64,000 bases of DNA, from the NCBI GenBank assembly GCA_030747075.1, contig JASLLL010000005.1:48216-112215 (forward strand). Direction: 5' to 3'. This DNA is from Gemmatimonadota bacterium. GTDB taxonomy: Bacteria > ARS69. A model generated the notes under the pieces. It did no database searches and was not told the DNA's origin. It worked only from the letters and a program-made list of their open reading frames with translations. Each line of letters opens with the position of its first letter. The stretch's first letter is position 1. The position numbers were made by a program, and so were the translations under genes. Below are positions 11,265 to 59,843 of the stretch, one piece after another.

Positions 11265-12953
11265 GTTCAGCATCCGCGCCACCACCTCCGGCGCGGACTC
11301 CACGGAGACCTTCTCGACCTGACCGTCGCGTCGGCGCCGCACCTCAACCAGTCCTTCCGCGAGATTCCGCTCTCCGATGGTCACCCGCACGGGGCTGCCC
11401 ACCAGGTCCGCATCCTTGAACTTCGCGCCCGGCCGGCCAGAGCGATCGTCCAGCAATGTCTCGTCCGCGGGAAGCGCGTCAGCGATGGTCCGTGCCGCGA
11501 TCATCGATTCCTCATGCGCGGCCTTGACCGGCGTGACGGTCACCTCATACGGAGCCAGAGCCACGGGCCAGATGATGCCGTTCTCGTCGTGGTTCTGCTC
11601 CACAGCCGCCGCCACCGTCCGCGTCGTCCCGATGCCATAGCACCCCATGACACTCGTCCGGTTCTTGCCGTCCTTGTCAAGAAACTGCGCCCCCATCGCC
11701 CCGGAGTACTTCGTCCCCAGCTTGAAGATGTGGCCGACCTCGATCCCCCGGATCGCCTGCATCGGTCCCCCCCCGCGCGGGCACAGGTCTCCGGCGCGAG
11801 CCGTCGCAATATCACACCAGTCGTCCGGGTCGAAGTCCCGTCCAGGGTTCACCCCCGTGAAGTGCGCATCTTCCCGGTTGGCACCGGTCACTCCGTCCGC
11901 AATGCCCCGCACGGAGTAGTCCGCGATCACGCGCACCCCGGAGAGTCCCACCGGACCCGCGAATCCGACCGGGGCCTTCGTGACGCGCGTGATCACTTCC
12001 GGAGAAGCCAGCTCCACCCGCTTCCCGAGGAAGCGCGCCAGCTTGCCCTCGTTGACATCCCGATCGCCACTGACCAGTGCAACCACCGGGCCATCCTCCG
12101 TCTCGTAAACCAGCGTCTTCACCAGTCGCCCCGGCTCGACACCGAGGAACGCCGCCACCTCATCCACGGACTTCAGCCCGGGCGTGTCCACTTCCGCAAG
12201 ATCCGCACTCCCTTCGGGCGACTCGCCCCCCGGATCCAACCGGTCCGCGCGTTCGTCAGAAGCGCAGTAGCCGGATTCCTCGCTGAAGAGAATCGTCGCC
12301 TCTCCGGACTCCGCCAGCACCATGAACTCGTGGCAGACCTCTCCCCCGATCGCGCCGGAATCCGCCTCCACCACGCGAAACTCCAACCCGCATCGCGTGA
12401 AAATCCGTGTGTAAGCTTCGTGCATCTTCCGATAGGTCTCGGCCAGGCAGTCTTCGGTTTCATGGAAGCTGTACGCGTCCTTCATGCCGAACTCGCGTGC
12501 CCGCATCAAGCCGAATCGAGGCCGGATCTCGTCGCGGAACTTGGTCTGGATCTGGTAGAGATTCACCGGCAGCTGCCGATAGGACGAAACCTCGGTCCGG
12601 ATAAGATCGGTGATCACTTCTTCGTGGGTCGGTCCCAGCGCGAAGAAGCGGCCATGCCGATCCTCCATTCGCATCATCTCTTTCCCGTAAACATCCCAGC
12701 GCCCCGTCTCCTTCCAGAGATCCTCCGGCGAAAGAACGGGCATGCGGACTTCCTGCGCACCGGCCCGGTTCATCTCCTCGCGGACAATGGCCTCTACCTT
12801 CAGCACCGATCGCCACCCAAGCGGAAGCATGGTGTACAAGCCGGAGCCGACTCTTCGCATCATTCCCGCCCGGAGAAGCAAACGATGCGAAGGGATCTCC
12901 GCGTCCGAGGGGACCTCTTTCATGGTGGGGATCAGCGCGCGACTCCACAGCAT
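11244..12953 (-). CDS. proS: Prolyl-tRNA synthetase (bacterial type)
   Basis: Charges tRNA-Pro. From the ATG at 12953 the protein has 569 residues, the usual bacterial ProRS length. Class II motif 1 lies in GLYTMLPLGWRSVLKVEAIV, motif 2 in FRDEIRPRFGLMRAREFGMKD, and motif 3 in GCYGIGTTRTVAA. The insertion (editing) domain between motifs 2 and 3 is present, with VKTLVYETEDGPVVALVSGD. The frame is open far upstream, across the end of the aldolase gene, but AGGAGG stands ten bases before the 12953 ATG and MLWSRALIPTMKEVP is the typical ProS opening. It follows the microcompartment operon on the same strand after only 34 bases, so it may be read through from it. Confidence 0.96.
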   Translation of the reverse strand: MLWSRALIPTMKEVPSDAEIPSHRLLLRAGMMRRVGSGLYTMLPLGWRSVLKVEAIVREEMNRAGAQEVRMPVLSPEDLWKETGRWDVYGKEMMRMEDRHGRFFALGPTHEEVITDLIRTEVSSYRQLPVNLYQIQTKFRDEIRPRFGLMRAREFGMKDAYSFHETEDCLAETYRKMHEAYTRIFTRCGLEFRVVEADSGAIGGEVCHEFMVLAESGEATILFSEESGYCASDERADRLDPGGESPEGSADLAEVDTPGLKSVDEVAAFLGVEPGRLVKTLVYETEDGPVVALVSGDRDVNEGKLARFLGKRVELASPEVITRVTKAPVGFAGPVGLSGVRVIADYSVRGIADGVTGANREDAHFTGVNPGRDFDPDDWCDIATARAGDLCPRGGGPMQAIRGIEVGHIFKLGTKYSGAMGAQFLDKDGKNRTSVMGCYGIGTTRTVAAAVEQNHDENGIIWPVALAPYEVTVTPVKAAHEESMIAARTIADALPADETLLDDRSGRPGAKFKDADLVGSPVRVTIGERNLAEGLVEVRRRRDGQVEKVSVESAPEVVARMLNEETPRV

Positions 12954-14922: not shown

Positions 14923-16193
14923 GCTCTCTCCCTTACCAGCGTCAGCGAACCATTCAACGCGCGAACTCTCCCCGAGAAGGGCGCGTGAATGCGCACTTCC
15001 TGCTCCCCGTCCCCGCCTCGGGCGACCACCTGCCCCTTCCAGACATCCTCCCCAGTCCGGACGACCGCCGAGACGCGGAGTCCGTCCTCTTGGGCCAGCG
15101 ACAGGCGAACGCGCCCGATCCGGTCGCGGACATCGGTCCGGGCCTCCACCGCTCCTCCGATCCCGAGCCTGCGTGCGAACGCCTCGCGCGGGACGAAGCG
15201 AACCGCTGACGGCGACCGCTGCCGCACCCCTTGCGAACGAACACGCTGCGCGACTTCCGATGCGAGTCTACCCACCGGAATCGCCGACGGACAGACGGTA
15301 TCGCACAATCGGCATTCCAGACACGATCCGGACGCGCTCGGAGGATACGGTCCTCCATCCCGCCCCGGCCAGCGAAGAGCGTCCACCAGGCTTCGCGGCC
15401 GCACCCCCGCATCGGCAGCCGGGCAGATGGTGTTGCACAGGAAGCAGCGGGAGCAGCCCGCTTCCACGCGAGAGAGCGCGCTGTTGAAGGAGCGCGCCTC
15501 CCCTTCGGCCAGTGGGTGATCGGGCGGAAGGAAGATCATCGCACCCTCCCCGGCGGAAATGCCGTGTCGCGTTCCGACCGCTCGCCCACGACTCCCGCTC
15601 CAGGCGAACGCCACCGCATCGGGTGACTTGCGCCCTCCCGCCATCCGCGCAAGCGTGGCAACCGTCGTGCCAAGGGGAACGCGAAAAGTGCCCGGACTGC
15701 GCACATCTCCGGCAACCGTCACCCATGCGTCGAGCAGAACACGACCGCGCCTCGCGTGCCCGGCCGCCACCGCAACCCATGCGGGAAAGATGCGAAACGC
15801 GCCTGCGGGAATGCCTTCAAGACGCGGCGTTGCGGAGAGCCATGTCCGCAGGGCGGACTCCTCTCCCATCGGATAGAGATCCGGAAGTTCCATCGTCGCG
15901 ATCCGCCCGCAGCGCGCCACCAGAGCTTCGAGCGTCTGTGCCTGCGCCTCTTCCGCTCCGACTGAGGCGATGAACACCGGGGCGCCGCCGCATCCCTCTC
16001 CGAGAACGCCCGCGCCCGCCACGAGATCCTCGGGACACTCCGTCAGGAGCGCCGTCTCCGAGGCCTGCCCCGGAGCGGCGTCCACGACCGTCACGACCAC
16101 CGGCCCGGCCTCCCGCGAATCCGTGCGGGGAAGCCGCCGGGGAATCCCTCCCCAGGCGAACAGGTCAGACAGCGTGGGGGAGTTCACGGTCAC
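14919..16193 (-). CDS. PduS/RnfC-like iron-sulfur protein of the microcompartment
   Basis: Electron-transfer protein of 424 residues related to PduS, the cobalamin reductase of propanediol metabolosomes. Two CxxCxxCxxxCP clusters near residues 250 and 295 (CSRCFLCNTICP, CLECRLCDTVCP) should each bind a [4Fe-4S] centre. A SLBB-like segment precedes them (VTVAGDVRSPGTFRVPLGTT). A barrel-sandwich module closes the protein (SAVVRTGEDVWKGQVVARG, IHAPFSGRVRAL). The N-terminus is unusual: I cannot find the glycine-rich GAGGAGFP loop or the ECDPLL-like block with which PduS and RnfC bind NADH and FMN. It may accept electrons differently. Start GTG overlaps the dehydrogenase stop. Confidence 0.82.
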   Translation of the reverse strand: MTVNSPTLSDLFAWGGIPRRLPRTDSREAGPVVVTVVDAAPGQASETALLTECPEDLVAGAGVLGEGCGGAPVFIASVGAEEAQAQTLEALVARCGRIATMELPDLYPMGEESALRTWLSATPRLEGIPAGAFRIFPAWVAVAAGHARRGRVLLDAWVTVAGDVRSPGTFRVPLGTTVATLARMAGGRKSPDAVAFAWSGSRGRAVGTRHGISAGEGAMIFLPPDHPLAEGEARSFNSALSRVEAGCSRCFLCNTICPAADAGVRPRSLVDALRWPGRDGGPYPPSASGSCLECRLCDTVCPSAIPVGRLASEVAQRVRSQGVRQRSPSAVRFVPREAFARRLGIGGAVEARTDVRDRIGRVRLSLAQEDGLRVSAVVRTGEDVWKGQVVARGGDGEQEVRIHAPFSGRVRALNGSLTLVRERA

Positions 16194-18759: not shown

Positions 18760-19332
18760 CGAAGCCTTGGGTTCATTCCGGAGAGAAATCGGCTCGGGGA
18801 GGGCGCAACCTGCGAGATACGAAGGGTGGGAAGTTCGGCGGTCCCCCACTTTGATGCCGCGCGCGGCGGCACCCGGGAGCATACCCATGCGAGTCAGGCC
18901 GGGAGCCCGCGAATCGCGGACATCGCAGGGGACCACCATTTTCCGTTCCGACGCCTCCTTCGAAAGCGGGCGCCGTGGAGAGGGCGGAGTCCGGCCGATT
19001 TCGCGGCAGCCTGTCCGGGGCCCGGCGACCGCCGTCCCCCGCTCCACTCCAAAGCTGTCCACTCTCCAAGCACGGTTTGTGCCAGCTCGCGCCCGGAAAG
19101 CGTCAAGAGCCCCGCAGGGACCCCTCCCACCCGGAATCGCCTTTGCTGTGCCGAAGGCGCCCCGGCTCTCCGTGGGGAGATGTCCCGGTGCGGGGACCCA
19201 CTCCCGGCTCCGCAGGTACCCCGCAGGGCCGAAGTGCATCCCCTCGCACCATCCCATGGGACACCTGCCAGCGAGAGTTTTGAGACACGGGGACGAGAAT
19301 CCGAGGCGACCCGCAGGCGTGGCGGCGAGGGC
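18760..19332. other. Long intergenic region without a recognised gene
   Basis: About 570 bases between the microcompartment promoter and the SatD-like gene. Frames on both strands stay open here, but their translations are low-complexity Arg/Pro/Gly-rich and match nothing I recognise. I looked for RNase P RNA, tmRNA, SRP RNA, tRNA and riboswitch landmarks and found none. A 12-base palindrome GCCGCGCGCGGC lies at 18856-18867. It could be regulatory sequence or a decayed gene. Confidence 0.4.
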
Positions 19333-55038: not shown

Positions 55039-55068
55039 AAAACCCCCGCAAGATCAGGCGAGCGGGGG
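55039..55068 (-). terminator. Rho-independent terminator of the sigma-factor gene
   Basis: On the minus strand CCCCCGC (55068-55062), a 12-base loop and GCGGGGG (55049-55043), followed at once by TTTT (55042-55039). The sigma gene's TGA stop (55056-55054) lies in the loop and its last codons in the stem. This is one of the clearest terminators in the window and separates the sigma gene from recD2. Confidence 0.85.
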
Positions 55069-55965
55069 CACAGACGCGCCATCCTCGTACCGGCGGGCGA
55101 TCTCCCGGAGCTTCACGAGACACCGATTCTGGATCTGGCGCACACGCTCCCGGGTCACGCCGATGTGCATTCCGGTCTTCTCGAGCGACAGCGGTTCCTG
55201 CCCGTCCAGACCGAACCGGAAGTTGAGGATCCTGCGCTCCCGTTCGTCCAGCGAGGAGAGAAGAATGTCCAGACGCCGCCGGGCAAGTTCCGATCCCGCG
55301 GAGTCCTCGGGCGACTGCAGACTCCCGTCGGGGACGAGGTCGTGCAGGCAGAGCTCCCCGTCCGCGCCCAGCGGTCCGTCCATGGAGAGAGTGCTTCGCG
55401 AGAGGCGCGCAAGTCGGTCCACCTTCGGCAATGGCAGCCCCAGCGCGTGGGCCACATCCTCCCGCGTGTGCCGGCCCTCCCCCTCTTGTGCCAGGTCCCG
55501 CTCCACCCGAAGATAGCGCCGGAGATCCTGCACGACATTCGCCGGGATGCGAACCGTGCGACTGTGGTTTGCCAGCGACCGTGTGATGGCTTGCCGAATC
55601 CACTTGGAAGCGTAGGTCGAGAACCGAAAGCCGAGCTCGGGGTCGAAGTACTCCGTCGCCTTGATCAGCCCCAGATTCCCTTCACCGATCAGATCCGGAA
55701 GCGCGATTCCCATGCCCTGGTAGCGGCGCGCGATCGACACCACCAGGCGGAGGTTGGACGCGATGAACTTCTCCTTGGAACGCGCACACCCCTTTGAGGC
55801 GGCCCGAGCCAGCCGACACTCCTCCTCCCGCGTCAGGAGGCGCGCCCGACTGATGGCCTCCAGGTACGCACCCATCGTGTCCCGGGATGAAGCCGCCGTC
55901 GGACTCGGCGCAGCCCGCCGCGTGGCTCTTCCATTCCCAGCGCGCTCGCTTTGACCTGTTTCCAT
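55054..55965 (-). CDS. RNA polymerase sigma factor, sigma-70 family (group 2/alternative)
   Basis: A 303-residue sigma-70-family factor without region 1.1. Region 1.2 starts near DTMGAYLEAISRARLLTREE. Region 2 has FIASNLRLVVSIARRYQGMG, LPDLIGEGNLGLIKATEYFD (core binding) and GFRFSTYASKWIRQAITR (-10 reading). Region 3 follows, and region 4 ends in GVTRERVRQIQNRCLVKLRE (-35 reading). Size and region 1.2 resemble RpoS-, HrdB-like or stress sigma factors rather than the housekeeping one. The ATG has GGGAGG seven bases before it. A near-consensus sigma-54 promoter lies just upstream and the sigma-54 activator gene precedes it, so its synthesis is probably controlled by that regulator. Confidence 0.93.
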   Translation of the reverse strand: METGQSERAGNGRATRRAAPSPTAASSRDTMGAYLEAISRARLLTREEECRLARAASKGCARSKEKFIASNLRLVVSIARRYQGMGIALPDLIGEGNLGLIKATEYFDPELGFRFSTYASKWIRQAITRSLANHSRTVRIPANVVQDLRRYLRVERDLAQEGEGRHTREDVAHALGLPLPKVDRLARLSRSTLSMDGPLGADGELCLHDLVPDGSLQSPEDSAGSELARRRLDILLSSLDERERRILNFRFGLDGQEPLSLEKTGMHIGVTRERVRQIQNRCLVKLREIARRYEDGASVPPLA

Positions 55966-55993
55966 GTCGCACCCTCCCTTTGCGGAACTCTTC

Positions 55994-56008
55994 GCATGGA
56001 GCGTGCCA
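55994..56008 (-). promoter_or_regulatory. Near-consensus sigma-54 promoter upstream of the sigma-factor gene
   Basis: On the minus strand TGGCACGCTCCATGC (56008-55994) matches the sigma-54 consensus TGGCACN5TTGC at all but one position (A in place of the first T of TTGC). The GG and GC dinucleotides are twelve bases apart, as required. The start would fall near 55982, leaving 17 bases that contain the GGGAGG ribosome site of the ATG at 55965. Confidence 0.7.
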
Positions 56009-56066
56009 GTACCCGTCCCGCTCGCGTCTCACCGCGCAGGCGACCGATTCAGGCGGCCACGCCGGG

Positions 56067-56200
56067 GTTCACGCCACCGAAGCGAATGCTCATGTCCACG
56101 GGACGACCCGCGCAGATTGCGCACGAGGTTCACACTTCAGCCCGGAGCGCGCCCACGGCATGCCACGCGACCGTCTCCGGGCGGGAAGGAAGTTCACGCC
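56067..56200 (-). repeat. Three regularly spaced GTTCAC repeats, possible activator-binding sites
   Basis: GTTCACGCC at 56067-56075, GTTCACACT at 56128-56136 and GTTCACGCC at 56192-56200 (plus-strand reading) share the form RRGTTCACRC. They are 61 and 64 bases apart, close to six helical turns, and centred about 90, 150 and 215 bases upstream of the predicted sigma-54 start. That is the usual place for enhancer sites. A fourth copy, GTTCACTCC, lies at 59376-59384, just before the activator gene. Confidence 0.5.
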
Positions 56201-56251
56201 GGATCGCGTCTGGATGTGAAGGAAGTGGCCACCTGGGAGTGATCTCCGCGA

Positions 56252-59200
56252 TCAGAGCGGGATGTGGTAGCGGCCGATCTTGTTCAGGAGTCCCCGCCGG
56301 CTGATCCCAAGGAGGCGCGCGGCCTGGGAGCGGTTCCCCCCCGTCTTCTGAAGCGCCTTCGACACCATGTCCCGCTCCAGTGCTTCCACCACACTCGGCA
56401 GCGTGCGCTTCCCGTCCGGAGACAACACCCGCCCCGGCAAATCCGGAGGGCGAAGTTCCCGCGAGAGCTCACCCGCCTCCACCACGGAACCCGGCTCCCC
56501 CGTGGCCACGATGCGTTCCACCTCGTGCTGGAGATCCCTCACATTCCCCGGCCAGTCGTGCGCGACCAGAAGACTCATGGCGTCTGAAGAGATGCGCGGC
56601 GGGGGATCGCCCTGCCTCGTGGCATACCGCTTGAGGAAGTGATCCACCAGAAGCGGCACATCTTCTCTTCGCTCACGAAGCGGCGGGATGTCGATGGAGA
56701 TCACTCGAAGCCGATAGTACAGGTCTTCGAGGAACCGGCTCTTCTCCACGCGGGTCCGCAGATCTCGATTCGAGGCGCACAGAATCCGTGCGTCGATCGC
56801 GATCACTTCGCTGGACCCGACCGGACGAATCTCACCGCGATCGACCACCCGCAGTAGTCGCTGCTGAAAGCCACGGCCCGTCTTGTCGATTTCGTCGAGG
56901 AATACGGTCCCTCCCGACGCCTGCTCAAAGAGCCCGGTCTTGTCCCGCCCGGCGTCCGTGAACGCACCCTTCACATGGCCGAAGAGTTCGCTCTCGAGCA
57001 CGGACCGGGATATGGCGGCACAGTTGATGGTCACAAAGGGCGCGTCCCGCCTGGCCGAGGAAGCATGGATGGCTCGCGCAAGGAGTTCCTTGCCCGTCCC
57101 CGTCTCTCCCTGGAGGAGGACGGTGGACTCGTTCGAGCGGATCTTCTCGATCAGTTCGATGATCTCCAGCATTCTTCGGCTCTGCGTGAGGATCCCGTGG
57201 AAGCCATCCCGCCCCGTAAGACGCCGGCGCAGCATGAGGTTCTCCCGACGCACCGCTTCCAGACGCATTTCCTGCACCGCCATCGCAGCCGTCGCGGCAA
57301 AGCCCACCACAAAATCAATCTCCGACTGCCGGAAGTCACCGGCCTCCCGGCTTCGAGCCACATGGACTCCGCCCAGGAACTCCTCTTCCGAGAAGAGGGG
57401 CATGAACAGAATGGAGCCGGTATCCTCCAGTTCTTCGGGCGGCAGTTTCTCGAACCGGGAATCCACGGACGGGTTCGTGGAGACCAGCGGCCGTGGCCCG
57501 AAACTACCATTGCCTTCCAGCGCGACCACCTGCCGCACGATGCGCGCGCACTCTTTCTCACTCTTCGAACTTCCCGCGGCGGGCGACCACTCCGTGGTGT
57601 CCTGCCCGCGCAAGAGCAGCACCGCACTCGACGCGACGAGTCTCTCCTTCAGCGTCGTCTCCATGACGCTAACGCGCGCGGAGGAATCCTCCGCAGCGCA
57701 TACCCGACCGACCGCATCATTCAGTACGGCCAGGTCGTTTCGCTCCGTGAGGGACTCATCCTCCAGTCGGCGATCGATGTCGCGGTGAAGGCGCCGCACG
57801 GCCATCCGATCCTCTTCATCCCCCACGCGATCCAAGAGCGCCATGGCCTGCCGCAGGTGCCCGCGCGCATCTCCGGTGGGTTCGGTGAGCACGGTCTCCA
57901 GTCTTGCCAGAGTCAGGTAGGCACAACCGGCCTCGTAGCTGGCTCCCATGTGGTCGAACAACGCCACGGCTTCCCGCAGATCAGCGCCCGCCTGATCCAG
58001 ATCCAGAATGTTCTCCACACGGAATGCCGCGAACTCCAGACGCGTCACGGCCAGTTCGTATGGGCTGCCAAACCGTCGCTGAATCTCCAGAGACTCACGG
58101 TAAGACCCGGCGGCGGCGGGGATGTCTCCATCCATCGCCGCAAGACGCGCGGCAAGGCGACGAAGCGCTCCCGCCTCCGAGTTCTCCCCGAGGCCCGCTG
58201 AGACGGCCTCGGCCTCCGTGAGAAGAGCTTGCGCCGCCGCACCGTTTCCACAGTGCGACTCCAGATCCGCCTGCCTGCGAAGCACCTCCAGGACCAGGTC
58301 GCCCAGGGGCGCGAGCCTTCGCGCGGATGCCAGTGCACCCTGATAGATCCCCCGAGCCCTCTCGTGTTCTTCGAGTGCGACAGCCAGATCTCCGCGAAAC
58401 TCCCGCGCCAGAATGACGGAGCGTGCATCCCCCAGCTGACCCGCGATCTTCTCCGCGCGCGAATAGAACTGCTCCGCCACCTCCCAGTTCCTTCGGTGCC
58501 GGTGGTAGTTTCCAAGATTCAGGCAGGCTGTACCGATCTCCAGGCGATTGCCGATCCCCTCCAGCGTGCGAAGCGCCCTCTCCCACTGGGCGCGGGCCGT
58601 CTCCCAGTTCCCCAGATGAAACTCGACCAGCCCGATGTTGTTGAGTGACCACCCCACGCGCAGGGTGTCGCCCACTTCCTCAAAGACGGCGAGGCTCTTC
58701 AGCAAGTGGCCTCGTGCATGGGTCCAGCGACCCCGGTTCTTCTCCATGAGGCCCAGGTTGTTCAGGCTGTCCGCCATGCCGGGCCGGTCTCCGGCCTCGC
58801 GGAAGAGCGTCAGCGCAGACTCAAACGAGAACGCGGCCGCATCCCAGTCTCCCCGGCGCAGGGCAATGATCCCGCGGCACTTTTGTCCGTGGGCCATCTG
58901 CGTCATGGTCTTTGTGTCGAGGAATGCGGACGCCGCCTCGTCGAGACACTCTTCCGCCGCGTCGTAGTCTCCGAGCCTTGTCAGCGCGTAGGCTCTCTCA
59001 TTGAGGATGCGAAGGCGTTCCGGACCCCCCTCCGTTGGGTCCATGGATGCCTTCGCTCGATCCAGAAGTTCCAGTGCACCCGTGCAGTCGCCGCTTTGGC
59101 TGCGACACCGCGCGGCCTCCACCAGAATCCTCGCGACCTCCCCGGGCGGTGCGCCCGCCTCTCTCATTCCGGATAGAATCCGGTCGAAGTAGCCCAGTGC

Positions 59201-59344
59201 CCCGGCAAGGTCCCCGGCGCTCCGGCTGAACTCCGCCATCTGTTCCAGGTGTGCGGCCTCTTCCCCGGCGCGAGGCGAAGGGGGCGAAGACGAGTCGCCC
59301 GAACCGGGTCGATCACCCCTGCCGCTTTCGAAAGGCCTTCGCAT
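56252..59344 (-). CDS. Sigma-54-dependent transcriptional activator with TPR and GAF sensor domains
   Basis: A 1030-residue regulator. Residues about 30-480 are a TPR array of ten or more repeats (GDWDAAAFSFESALTLFREA is one). A GAF domain spans about 545-700. The AAA+ domain (about 715-945) has Walker A GETGTGKELLARAIH, the sigma-54 loop GHVKGAFTDAGRDKTGLFEQ and Walker B GTVFLDEIDK. A Fis-type helix-turn-helix ends the protein (NRSQAARLLGISRRGLLNKI). The loop reads GAFTDA in place of GAFTGA, a known active variant. No response-regulator receiver domain exists, so control comes through TPR- or GAF-bound signals. The sigma-70-family gene follows downstream, behind a sigma-54 promoter. Confidence 0.92.
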   Translation of the reverse strand: MRRPFESGRGDRPGSGDSSSPPSPRAGEEAAHLEQMAEFSRSAGDLAGALGYFDRILSGMREAGAPPGEVARILVEAARCRSQSGDCTGALELLDRAKASMDPTEGGPERLRILNERAYALTRLGDYDAAEECLDEAASAFLDTKTMTQMAHGQKCRGIIALRRGDWDAAAFSFESALTLFREAGDRPGMADSLNNLGLMEKNRGRWTHARGHLLKSLAVFEEVGDTLRVGWSLNNIGLVEFHLGNWETARAQWERALRTLEGIGNRLEIGTACLNLGNYHRHRRNWEVAEQFYSRAEKIAGQLGDARSVILAREFRGDLAVALEEHERARGIYQGALASARRLAPLGDLVLEVLRRQADLESHCGNGAAAQALLTEAEAVSAGLGENSEAGALRRLAARLAAMDGDIPAAAGSYRESLEIQRRFGSPYELAVTRLEFAAFRVENILDLDQAGADLREAVALFDHMGASYEAGCAYLTLARLETVLTEPTGDARGHLRQAMALLDRVGDEEDRMAVRRLHRDIDRRLEDESLTERNDLAVLNDAVGRVCAAEDSSARVSVMETTLKERLVASSAVLLLRGQDTTEWSPAAGSSKSEKECARIVRQVVALEGNGSFGPRPLVSTNPSVDSRFEKLPPEELEDTGSILFMPLFSEEEFLGGVHVARSREAGDFRQSEIDFVVGFAATAAMAVQEMRLEAVRRENLMLRRRLTGRDGFHGILTQSRRMLEIIELIEKIRSNESTVLLQGETGTGKELLARAIHASSARRDAPFVTINCAAISRSVLESELFGHVKGAFTDAGRDKTGLFEQASGGTVFLDEIDKTGRGFQQRLLRVVDRGEIRPVGSSEVIAIDARILCASNRDLRTRVEKSRFLEDLYYRLRVISIDIPPLRERREDVPLLVDHFLKRYATRQGDPPPRISSDAMSLLVAHDWPGNVRDLQHEVERIVATGEPGSVVEAGELSRELRPPDLPGRVLSPDGKRTLPSVVEALERDMVSKALQKTGGNRSQAARLLGISRRGLLNKIGRYHIPL

Positions 59345-59457
59345 TGCCCGCCGTCCTTCCCCGGGTGTGAAGAGGGTTCACTCCCGATGACCCAACTCCG
59401 CCTTTCGGGAACGAACGGGTCGCGGCGGGGGGGGAATGACGAAACCGCGACGGTTCC

Positions 59458-59718
59458 CTACAGCGTCTGCACAACTCGCACGAACTCGGCGAGAAGCCTC
59501 GAAGTCCACAGGTTCCAGTCTCCGCGCGCTGAGTGAGGCAGGCGGCCGGACTCCTCCGCCACCAGGACCTCGTCTCCTGCCGGATTCCCTGGTTCCACCT
59601 TCATCGGAATGTCCGGGTCCCCTTCCGTGAGGTCGCCGCCGGGGTTGGCCATGGCCGCCCCGGTAACGAACATCGCGAGCGTCAGGAACCACCATACACT
59701 TCGATACCGTCTGCGCAT
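59458..59718 (-). CDS. Small secreted protein of unknown function
   Basis: An 86-residue precursor with a convincing signal peptide (RRRYRSVWWFLTLAMFVTGA, cleavage after AMA). The mature peptide is only about 63 residues: an acidic start (NPGGDLTEGDPDIPMKVEPG) and a short amphipathic C-terminal helix (WTSRLLAEFVRVVQTL). I recognise no family. The ATG at 59718 is seven bases after GGAGG; a GTG two codons upstream is also in frame. It sits upstream of the sigma-54 activator on the same strand, 113 bases apart, with an AACCG/CGGTT hairpin just after the stop. It may be a small envelope or signalling peptide, but nothing shows this. Confidence 0.55.
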   Translation of the reverse strand: MRRRYRSVWWFLTLAMFVTGAAMANPGGDLTEGDPDIPMKVEPGNPAGDEVLVAEESGRLPHSARGDWNLWTSRLLAEFVRVVQTL

Positions 59719-59843
59719 GATCACGCCTCCTGCGATTCCCGCCGGGCGTTCGGCGGATCCCCGGGGAGCCCGCTGCGAAGGGGCTTCACACCCGAGGTTC
59801 CAACACTCTAGGAAGGAAGGGGCGAATCGTCAAATCGGGAGGG

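Follow-up and report, generated by a model that had tools for sequence, protein, structure and literature searches.

A predicted sigma-54-dependent cascade to an alternative sigma factor in a Gemmatimonadota bacterium and its relatives

What controls an alternative sigma factor whose gene lies just downstream of that of an enhancer-binding protein? The question is raised by a locus within 64 kb of DNA from a Gemmatimonadota bacterium (contig JASLLL010000005.1, here C5, of a 2.67-Mb draft genome); this whole stretch is hereafter called the window. On the minus strand, the order of transcription is a small exported protein gene, the activator gene, a 286-base gap, the sigma gene and a RecD2-type helicase gene (called from its sequence). 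A preliminary description of the window had read the central pair as a regulatory cascade, and both genes were found at the positions it gave (Table 1). It is very probable that the locus forms a self-contained cascade, in which the activator would act on a sigma-54 promoter to switch on a group-2 sigma factor. Indeed, the source genome contains rpoN, and the gene order, a -24/-12 box and an array of three dyads are kept in all five genera compared. The cascade would fall in a genome lacking sigma-54, and the check for rpoN that the preliminary description had called for found the gene present and full length, with its RpoN box (ARRTVAKYREKMG).

Conservation was assessed in five genera of the phylum-level group, namely the source and four relatives (G001-G004), with one genome per genus. 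The relatives are fragmented assemblies, two of the four with contamination above 5%, and their loci lie on contigs JALGZO010000614.1, JALGZR010000033.1, BQJX01000146.1 and JAGQIB010000257.1. The activator and sigma genes are adjacent and co-oriented in 5/5 genera; in each of the four relatives, an activator ortholog of 50-54% identity immediately precedes the sigma gene, and the sigma orthologs there are 64-68% identical. The preliminary description had regarded a TPR-sensing activator beside its target as unusual. This is an ordinary arrangement, as enhancer-binding proteins are commonly encoded beside their targets. To that description the present analysis adds an enhancer of three sites, sites that probably serve autoregulation, the activator's GAFTDA loop and the exported small protein.

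A conserved -24/-12 box and three-dyad array

The promoter had been recognised from TGGCACGCTCCATGC at 55994-56008 (-), one mismatch from TGGCACG-N4-TTGC and with correct GG-GC spacing, which was reproduced here; against the 17-base form YTGGCACG-N4-TTGCW, the box shows two mismatches. The predicted start, with its short leader to the ATG, likewise agrees with the recomputed geometry. At the corresponding place, the four relatives carry boxes matching 11-12 of 13 consensus positions (TTGGCACGAGCCCTGCA, TTGGCACAATGCCTGCA, TTGGCATGCCCCCTGCA and CTGGCACAAGCCCTGCA), while the intergenic sequence around them has otherwise diverged among the five genera, and it is this conservation in place that makes the box significant. 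The element thus combines GG-N10-GC near consensus with conservation among orthologs, as taken here to mark a sigma-54 promoter. For comparison, 500 bases were scanned upstream of 31 other group-1/2 loci of the sigma-70 family (25 belonged to other families and the remainder were paralogs; at one locus only 71 bases were available), and a single locus, that of genome G052, has a sigma-54 box, with an NtrC-type activator gene directly upstream. A strict sigma-54 pattern returned too few sites across the five genomes to describe a regulon. Three more sigma-54-like boxes, scoring equally or better, lie at 15657-15673, 19069-19085 and 12078-12094 (-).

Upstream of the box lie three dyads of the type TGTGAA-N5-TTCACA, named U1, U2 and U3, whose geometry is nearly fixed. 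The spacing between U2 and U3 is exactly 64 bp in every genus, and that between U1 and U3 is 97, 98, 98, 99 and 98 bp across the five. U3 and the box are 125 bp apart in the source genome versus 144-148 bp in the other four, which brings the source promoter about 21 bp, or about two helical turns, nearer to U3. A matrix trained on the relatives' sites only was run over the whole window, and its four best positions were U3, a dyad near the promoter of the small gene, a palindrome before the activator and U1; leave-one-out scans gave a matching layout in the other genomes. The strict motif TGTRAA-N5-TGYSCA has eight matches in the five genomes (about 20 Mb), five of them in this gap, one per genome. 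Fifteen other loose dyad matches in the source genome, beyond the locus, all lie inside long open frames with no sigma-54 box nearby, and a wider dyad regulon is not claimed from them. Given this rarity beyond the locus, the array looks dedicated to the sigma gene and to the activator's own gene.

Altogether, these elements would fit a model in which a sigma-70-type promoter in front of the small exported protein gene supplies a one-component activator in small amounts, probably limited by the activator itself. Once its sensor part (the TPR array and perhaps the GAF domain) is in the active state, presumably in response to a signal sensed by the TPRs, activator dimers would occupy U1-U3 and form an AAA+ ring. 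This ring would loop to the sigma-54 RNA polymerase at the -24/-12 box and open the promoter by ATP hydrolysis, and the group-2 sigma factor would then redirect RNA polymerase to its own genes.

The activator and competing explanations

The activator combines several TPR stretches and a weak GAF match with a strong sigma-54 AAA+ domain (PF00158, 210 bits) and a Fis-type HTH (HTH_8, 52.7 bits), the last two being the pair of domains by which enhancer-binding proteins were recognised. An AlphaFold2 model of its TPR-GAF part shows a confident TPR superhelix and a GAF-like domain (predicted local distance difference test, pLDDT, 85.5). By sequence, the TPR region matches generic TPR proteins; a fold search of the TPR part returned generic TPR superhelices, with Rap3T among the matches, and indicated no ligand. 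With the terms used, a search of open-access papers gave none on TPR-containing enhancer-binding proteins.

The AAA+ loop reads GAFTDA in four of the five orthologs, GSFTDA in one and GAFTGA in none, and, among the 15 activators of the source genome that could be read there, several have aspartate at that position. In Escherichia coli NorR, the G266D substitution creates the same GAFTDA loop, keeps enhancer-dependent assembly and sigma-54 open-complex formation, and escapes GAF repression (PMC2941729), so that such a loop does not exclude sigma-54 action. The Desulfovibrio regulator DVU2106, with GAFTDA, is also listed as functional (PMC4641369). Whereas NorR relies on GAF repression of a GAFTGA loop, GAFTDA is expected to bypass such repression. 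The analogy suggests that the activator is not controlled by a NorR-type action of GAF on the loop, which makes the large TPR array the likelier control element.

Several points weigh against the proposed cascade. The loop departs from GAFTGA, and a pull-down with VfmH, another protein with GAFTDA, gave no sigma-54 (PMC10714721). The surrounding 10 kb or so is syntenic in the relatives, with a peptidase gene upstream and helicase and cysteine-synthesis genes downstream, so the adjacency of activator and sigma genes is by itself weak proof. U2 is weak in the source genome, and the strict dyad motif is derived from these very sites, the held-out scan being the fairer test. Taken alone, the box is not convincing either: the window holds four of equal strength, and the chance of one in this intergenic region is about 0.0075. 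The box on which the preliminary description had built its claim is where it was stated to be, but it would not have carried that claim unaided.

Could most transcripts of the sigma gene arise by read-through out of the activator gene, or start at a sigma-70-type promoter that escaped recognition, with the box being incidental? The genes are co-oriented across a gap of only 286 bp in which no terminator was found in the source genome, a box of this strength is a four-in-64-kb event, and the gene could also have a promoter of a type outside the consensus patterns scanned. Such an origin of the transcript is nevertheless improbable, as box and array are fixed in place across five genera amid diverged sequence, the gap gave no match to the sigma-70-type consensus promoters scanned for, and terminator-like hairpins, judged by eye, follow the activator gene in two relatives. 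It is very improbable that another enhancer-binding protein uses U1-U3 and that the neighbour is not the regulator. The genome encodes 16 other strong-scoring activators, and recognition of the dyads by the neighbour is itself a prediction from sequence, yet outside the gap the dyads are seen at the gene of this activator and hardly anywhere else, and the two genes adjoin in every genus compared.

The conserved -24/-12 box downstream of the dyads speaks against a further alternative, in which the AAA+ protein would be TyrR-like, working without sigma-54 and repressing or activating the sigma gene from the dyads by ordinary sigma-70 control. Together with the aspartate found in other activators of the same genome and with the properties of NorR G266D and DVU2106, this box makes such a role highly improbable, even though the GAFTDA loop, the VfmH result and the presence of dyads near the activator's own sigma-70-type promoter would all agree with it.

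Upstream region, small exported protein and sigma factor

The features of the locus are collected in Table 1.

Table 1. Features of the activator-sigma factor locus in window coordinates
Feature	Position	Strand	Basis or remark
Sigma gene, group-2 (RpoS/RpoD-like) sigma-70 family, 303 amino acids; predicted target	55054-55965	-	Pfam Sigma70 r1.2/r2/r3/r4
Predicted sigma-54 transcription start, 17-base leader to ATG	55982	-	12 bases past the C of the -12 GC; inferred
-24/-12 sigma-54 promoter box CTGGCACGCTCCATGCG	55993-56009	-	11/13 to consensus; matching boxes in 4/4 relatives
Enhancer dyad U3, TGTGAA-CCTCG-TGCGCA	56118-56134	-	Rank 1 of 63,980 positions, relatives-only matrix
Enhancer dyad U2, weak	56182-56198	-	Rank 36 of 63,980, relatives-only matrix
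Enhancer dyad U1, 97 bp from U3	56215-56231	-	Rank 4, relatives-only matrix
TPR-GAF-AAA+-HTH enhancer-binding protein, 1030 amino acids, loop GAFTDA	56252-59344	-	Pfam
Palindromic dyad GTGAACCCTCTTCACAC, candidate autoregulatory operator, ~37 bases before activator ATG	59365-59381	-	Rank 3, held-out matrix (scanned palindrome at 59364-59384)
Small exported protein gene, 86 amino acids, signal peptide, motif GDPDxP	59458-59718	-	Upstream neighbour of activator in 5/5 genomes
Dyad GGTGTGAAGCCCCTTCGCAGC just downstream of small-gene promoter	59772-59792	-	Rank 2, held-out matrix
Sigma-70-type promoter TTGACG-N17-TAGAGT, small gene and probably activator	59805-59833	-	17-base spacer

The palindrome before the activator is a probable autoregulatory operator: it recurs at about the same distance in G002 and G003 and is nearer and weaker in G004, with none clear in G001. 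An operator role for the dyad further upstream is uncertain, as it overlaps a possible 5' hairpin in the relatives. The corresponding promoter reads TTGACG-N17-TAGAAT in G002 and G004. These sites suggest negative autoregulation of the activator, which we infer as the simplest reading.

The small protein is 84-95 residues long across the five genomes, with an invariant GDPDxP motif and, by visual inspection, a signal peptide, and its gene is present in a single copy per genome, at this locus only. This unvarying association marks it as a candidate for the signal, for a partner of the sensor or for a product of the system, and it is the least explained and potentially the most novel part of the locus. 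In RRNPP proteins, the TPR-based peptide-sensing regulators of Firmicutes, a TPR sensor is accompanied by a neighbouring gene for its cognate exported peptide precursor. At the present locus an exported small protein gene adjoins that of the activator in 5/5 genomes, and the TPR region is nearer in sequence to the TPRs of LGN and kinesin light chain, with Rap3T appearing in the fold search. It is conceivable, though unlikely, that the TPR array reads the GDPDxP protein, or a peptide derived from it, as signal or co-regulator, the locus then being a peptide-sensing circuit that launches an alternative sigma factor through a sigma-54 enhancer. If true, an uncultured and probably diderm lineage would combine RRNPP-like peptide sensing with the sigma-54-dependent start of an alternative sigma factor.

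The sigma factor itself is classed as group-2 and RpoS-like only; RpoS models gave the best NCBIfam scores, but the label RpoS was rejected, as these scores fall under the curated cut-offs (288 versus 394 and 285 versus about 379 bits). All five orthologs carry YASKWIRQ or YGSKWIRQ, in which a lysine takes the place of the first tryptophan of the WW pair seen there in the 29 other sigma entries compared (some loci twice). In housekeeping sigma factors, this tryptophan pair helps the opening of the -10 region. The 17-base leader occurs in the source genome only. The relatives (loci L051-L054) have leaders of 90-101 bases with conserved blocks, and their sigma proteins begin with an extra segment, MNLWxSEDLGEL, after which comes another in-frame start that has a ribosome site of its own; the source genome lacks all of these. 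An Rfam scan returned two tRNAs only, both far off, and no known RNA element in the sigma leader.

Relation to known systems

To our knowledge, most described cases in which sigma-54 controls another sigma factor come from a small number of pathogens. The precedent named in the preliminary description, the Rrp2-RpoN-RpoS pathway of Borrelia burgdorferi, is borne out by the literature, a sigma-54 promoter and an AAA+ activator driving an RpoS-type sigma gene (PMC3037356, PMC11109971). However, Rrp2 is NtrC-like and, according to reports, acts on rpoS without binding a specific enhancer, whereas the present locus has a one-component TPR-GAF activator beside its predicted target and three conserved dyads before the promoter. 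In Pseudomonas syringae, sigma-54 and the enhancer-binding proteins HrpR and HrpS, acting at an upstream site, drive the sigma gene hrpL (PMC5263251); HrpL is an ECF sigma factor with two codependent activators, in contrast to the group-2 factor and single TPR-GAF activator considered here. In its enhancer geometry, the locus most resembles Escherichia coli norVW, where three enhancer sites for the GAF-AAA+-HTH protein NorR precede a sigma-54 promoter (PMC2941729), although NorR has no TPR array and its target operon includes no sigma-factor gene.

The G052 pair (locus L097, 5373-7934), from a different bacterial family, has a layout like that of the source locus, its NtrC-type activator gene immediately preceding a group-2 sigma gene that has the box ATGGCATGGCCATTGCT. 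That activator has a receiver domain and a neighbouring kinase instead of a TPR-GAF part, and the sigma factor is 38% identical. The G052 pair suggests that bacteria have arrived at this activator-sigma wiring more than once.

No prior description of the present module was found among the open-access papers searched. The type of cascade is already known, and what is new is its dedicated version, in sensor type, adjacent single activator, three conserved dyads and lineage. The locus would extend sigma-to-sigma logic to a lineage without cultured members. There it would take the form of a dedicated module, conserved in 5/5 genera, in which a one-component sensor that probably controls its own gene is paired with three enhancer sites at fixed spacing. 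Its five diverged enhancers also offer a compact natural set for examining the spacing and helical-phase constraints on sigma-54 activation.

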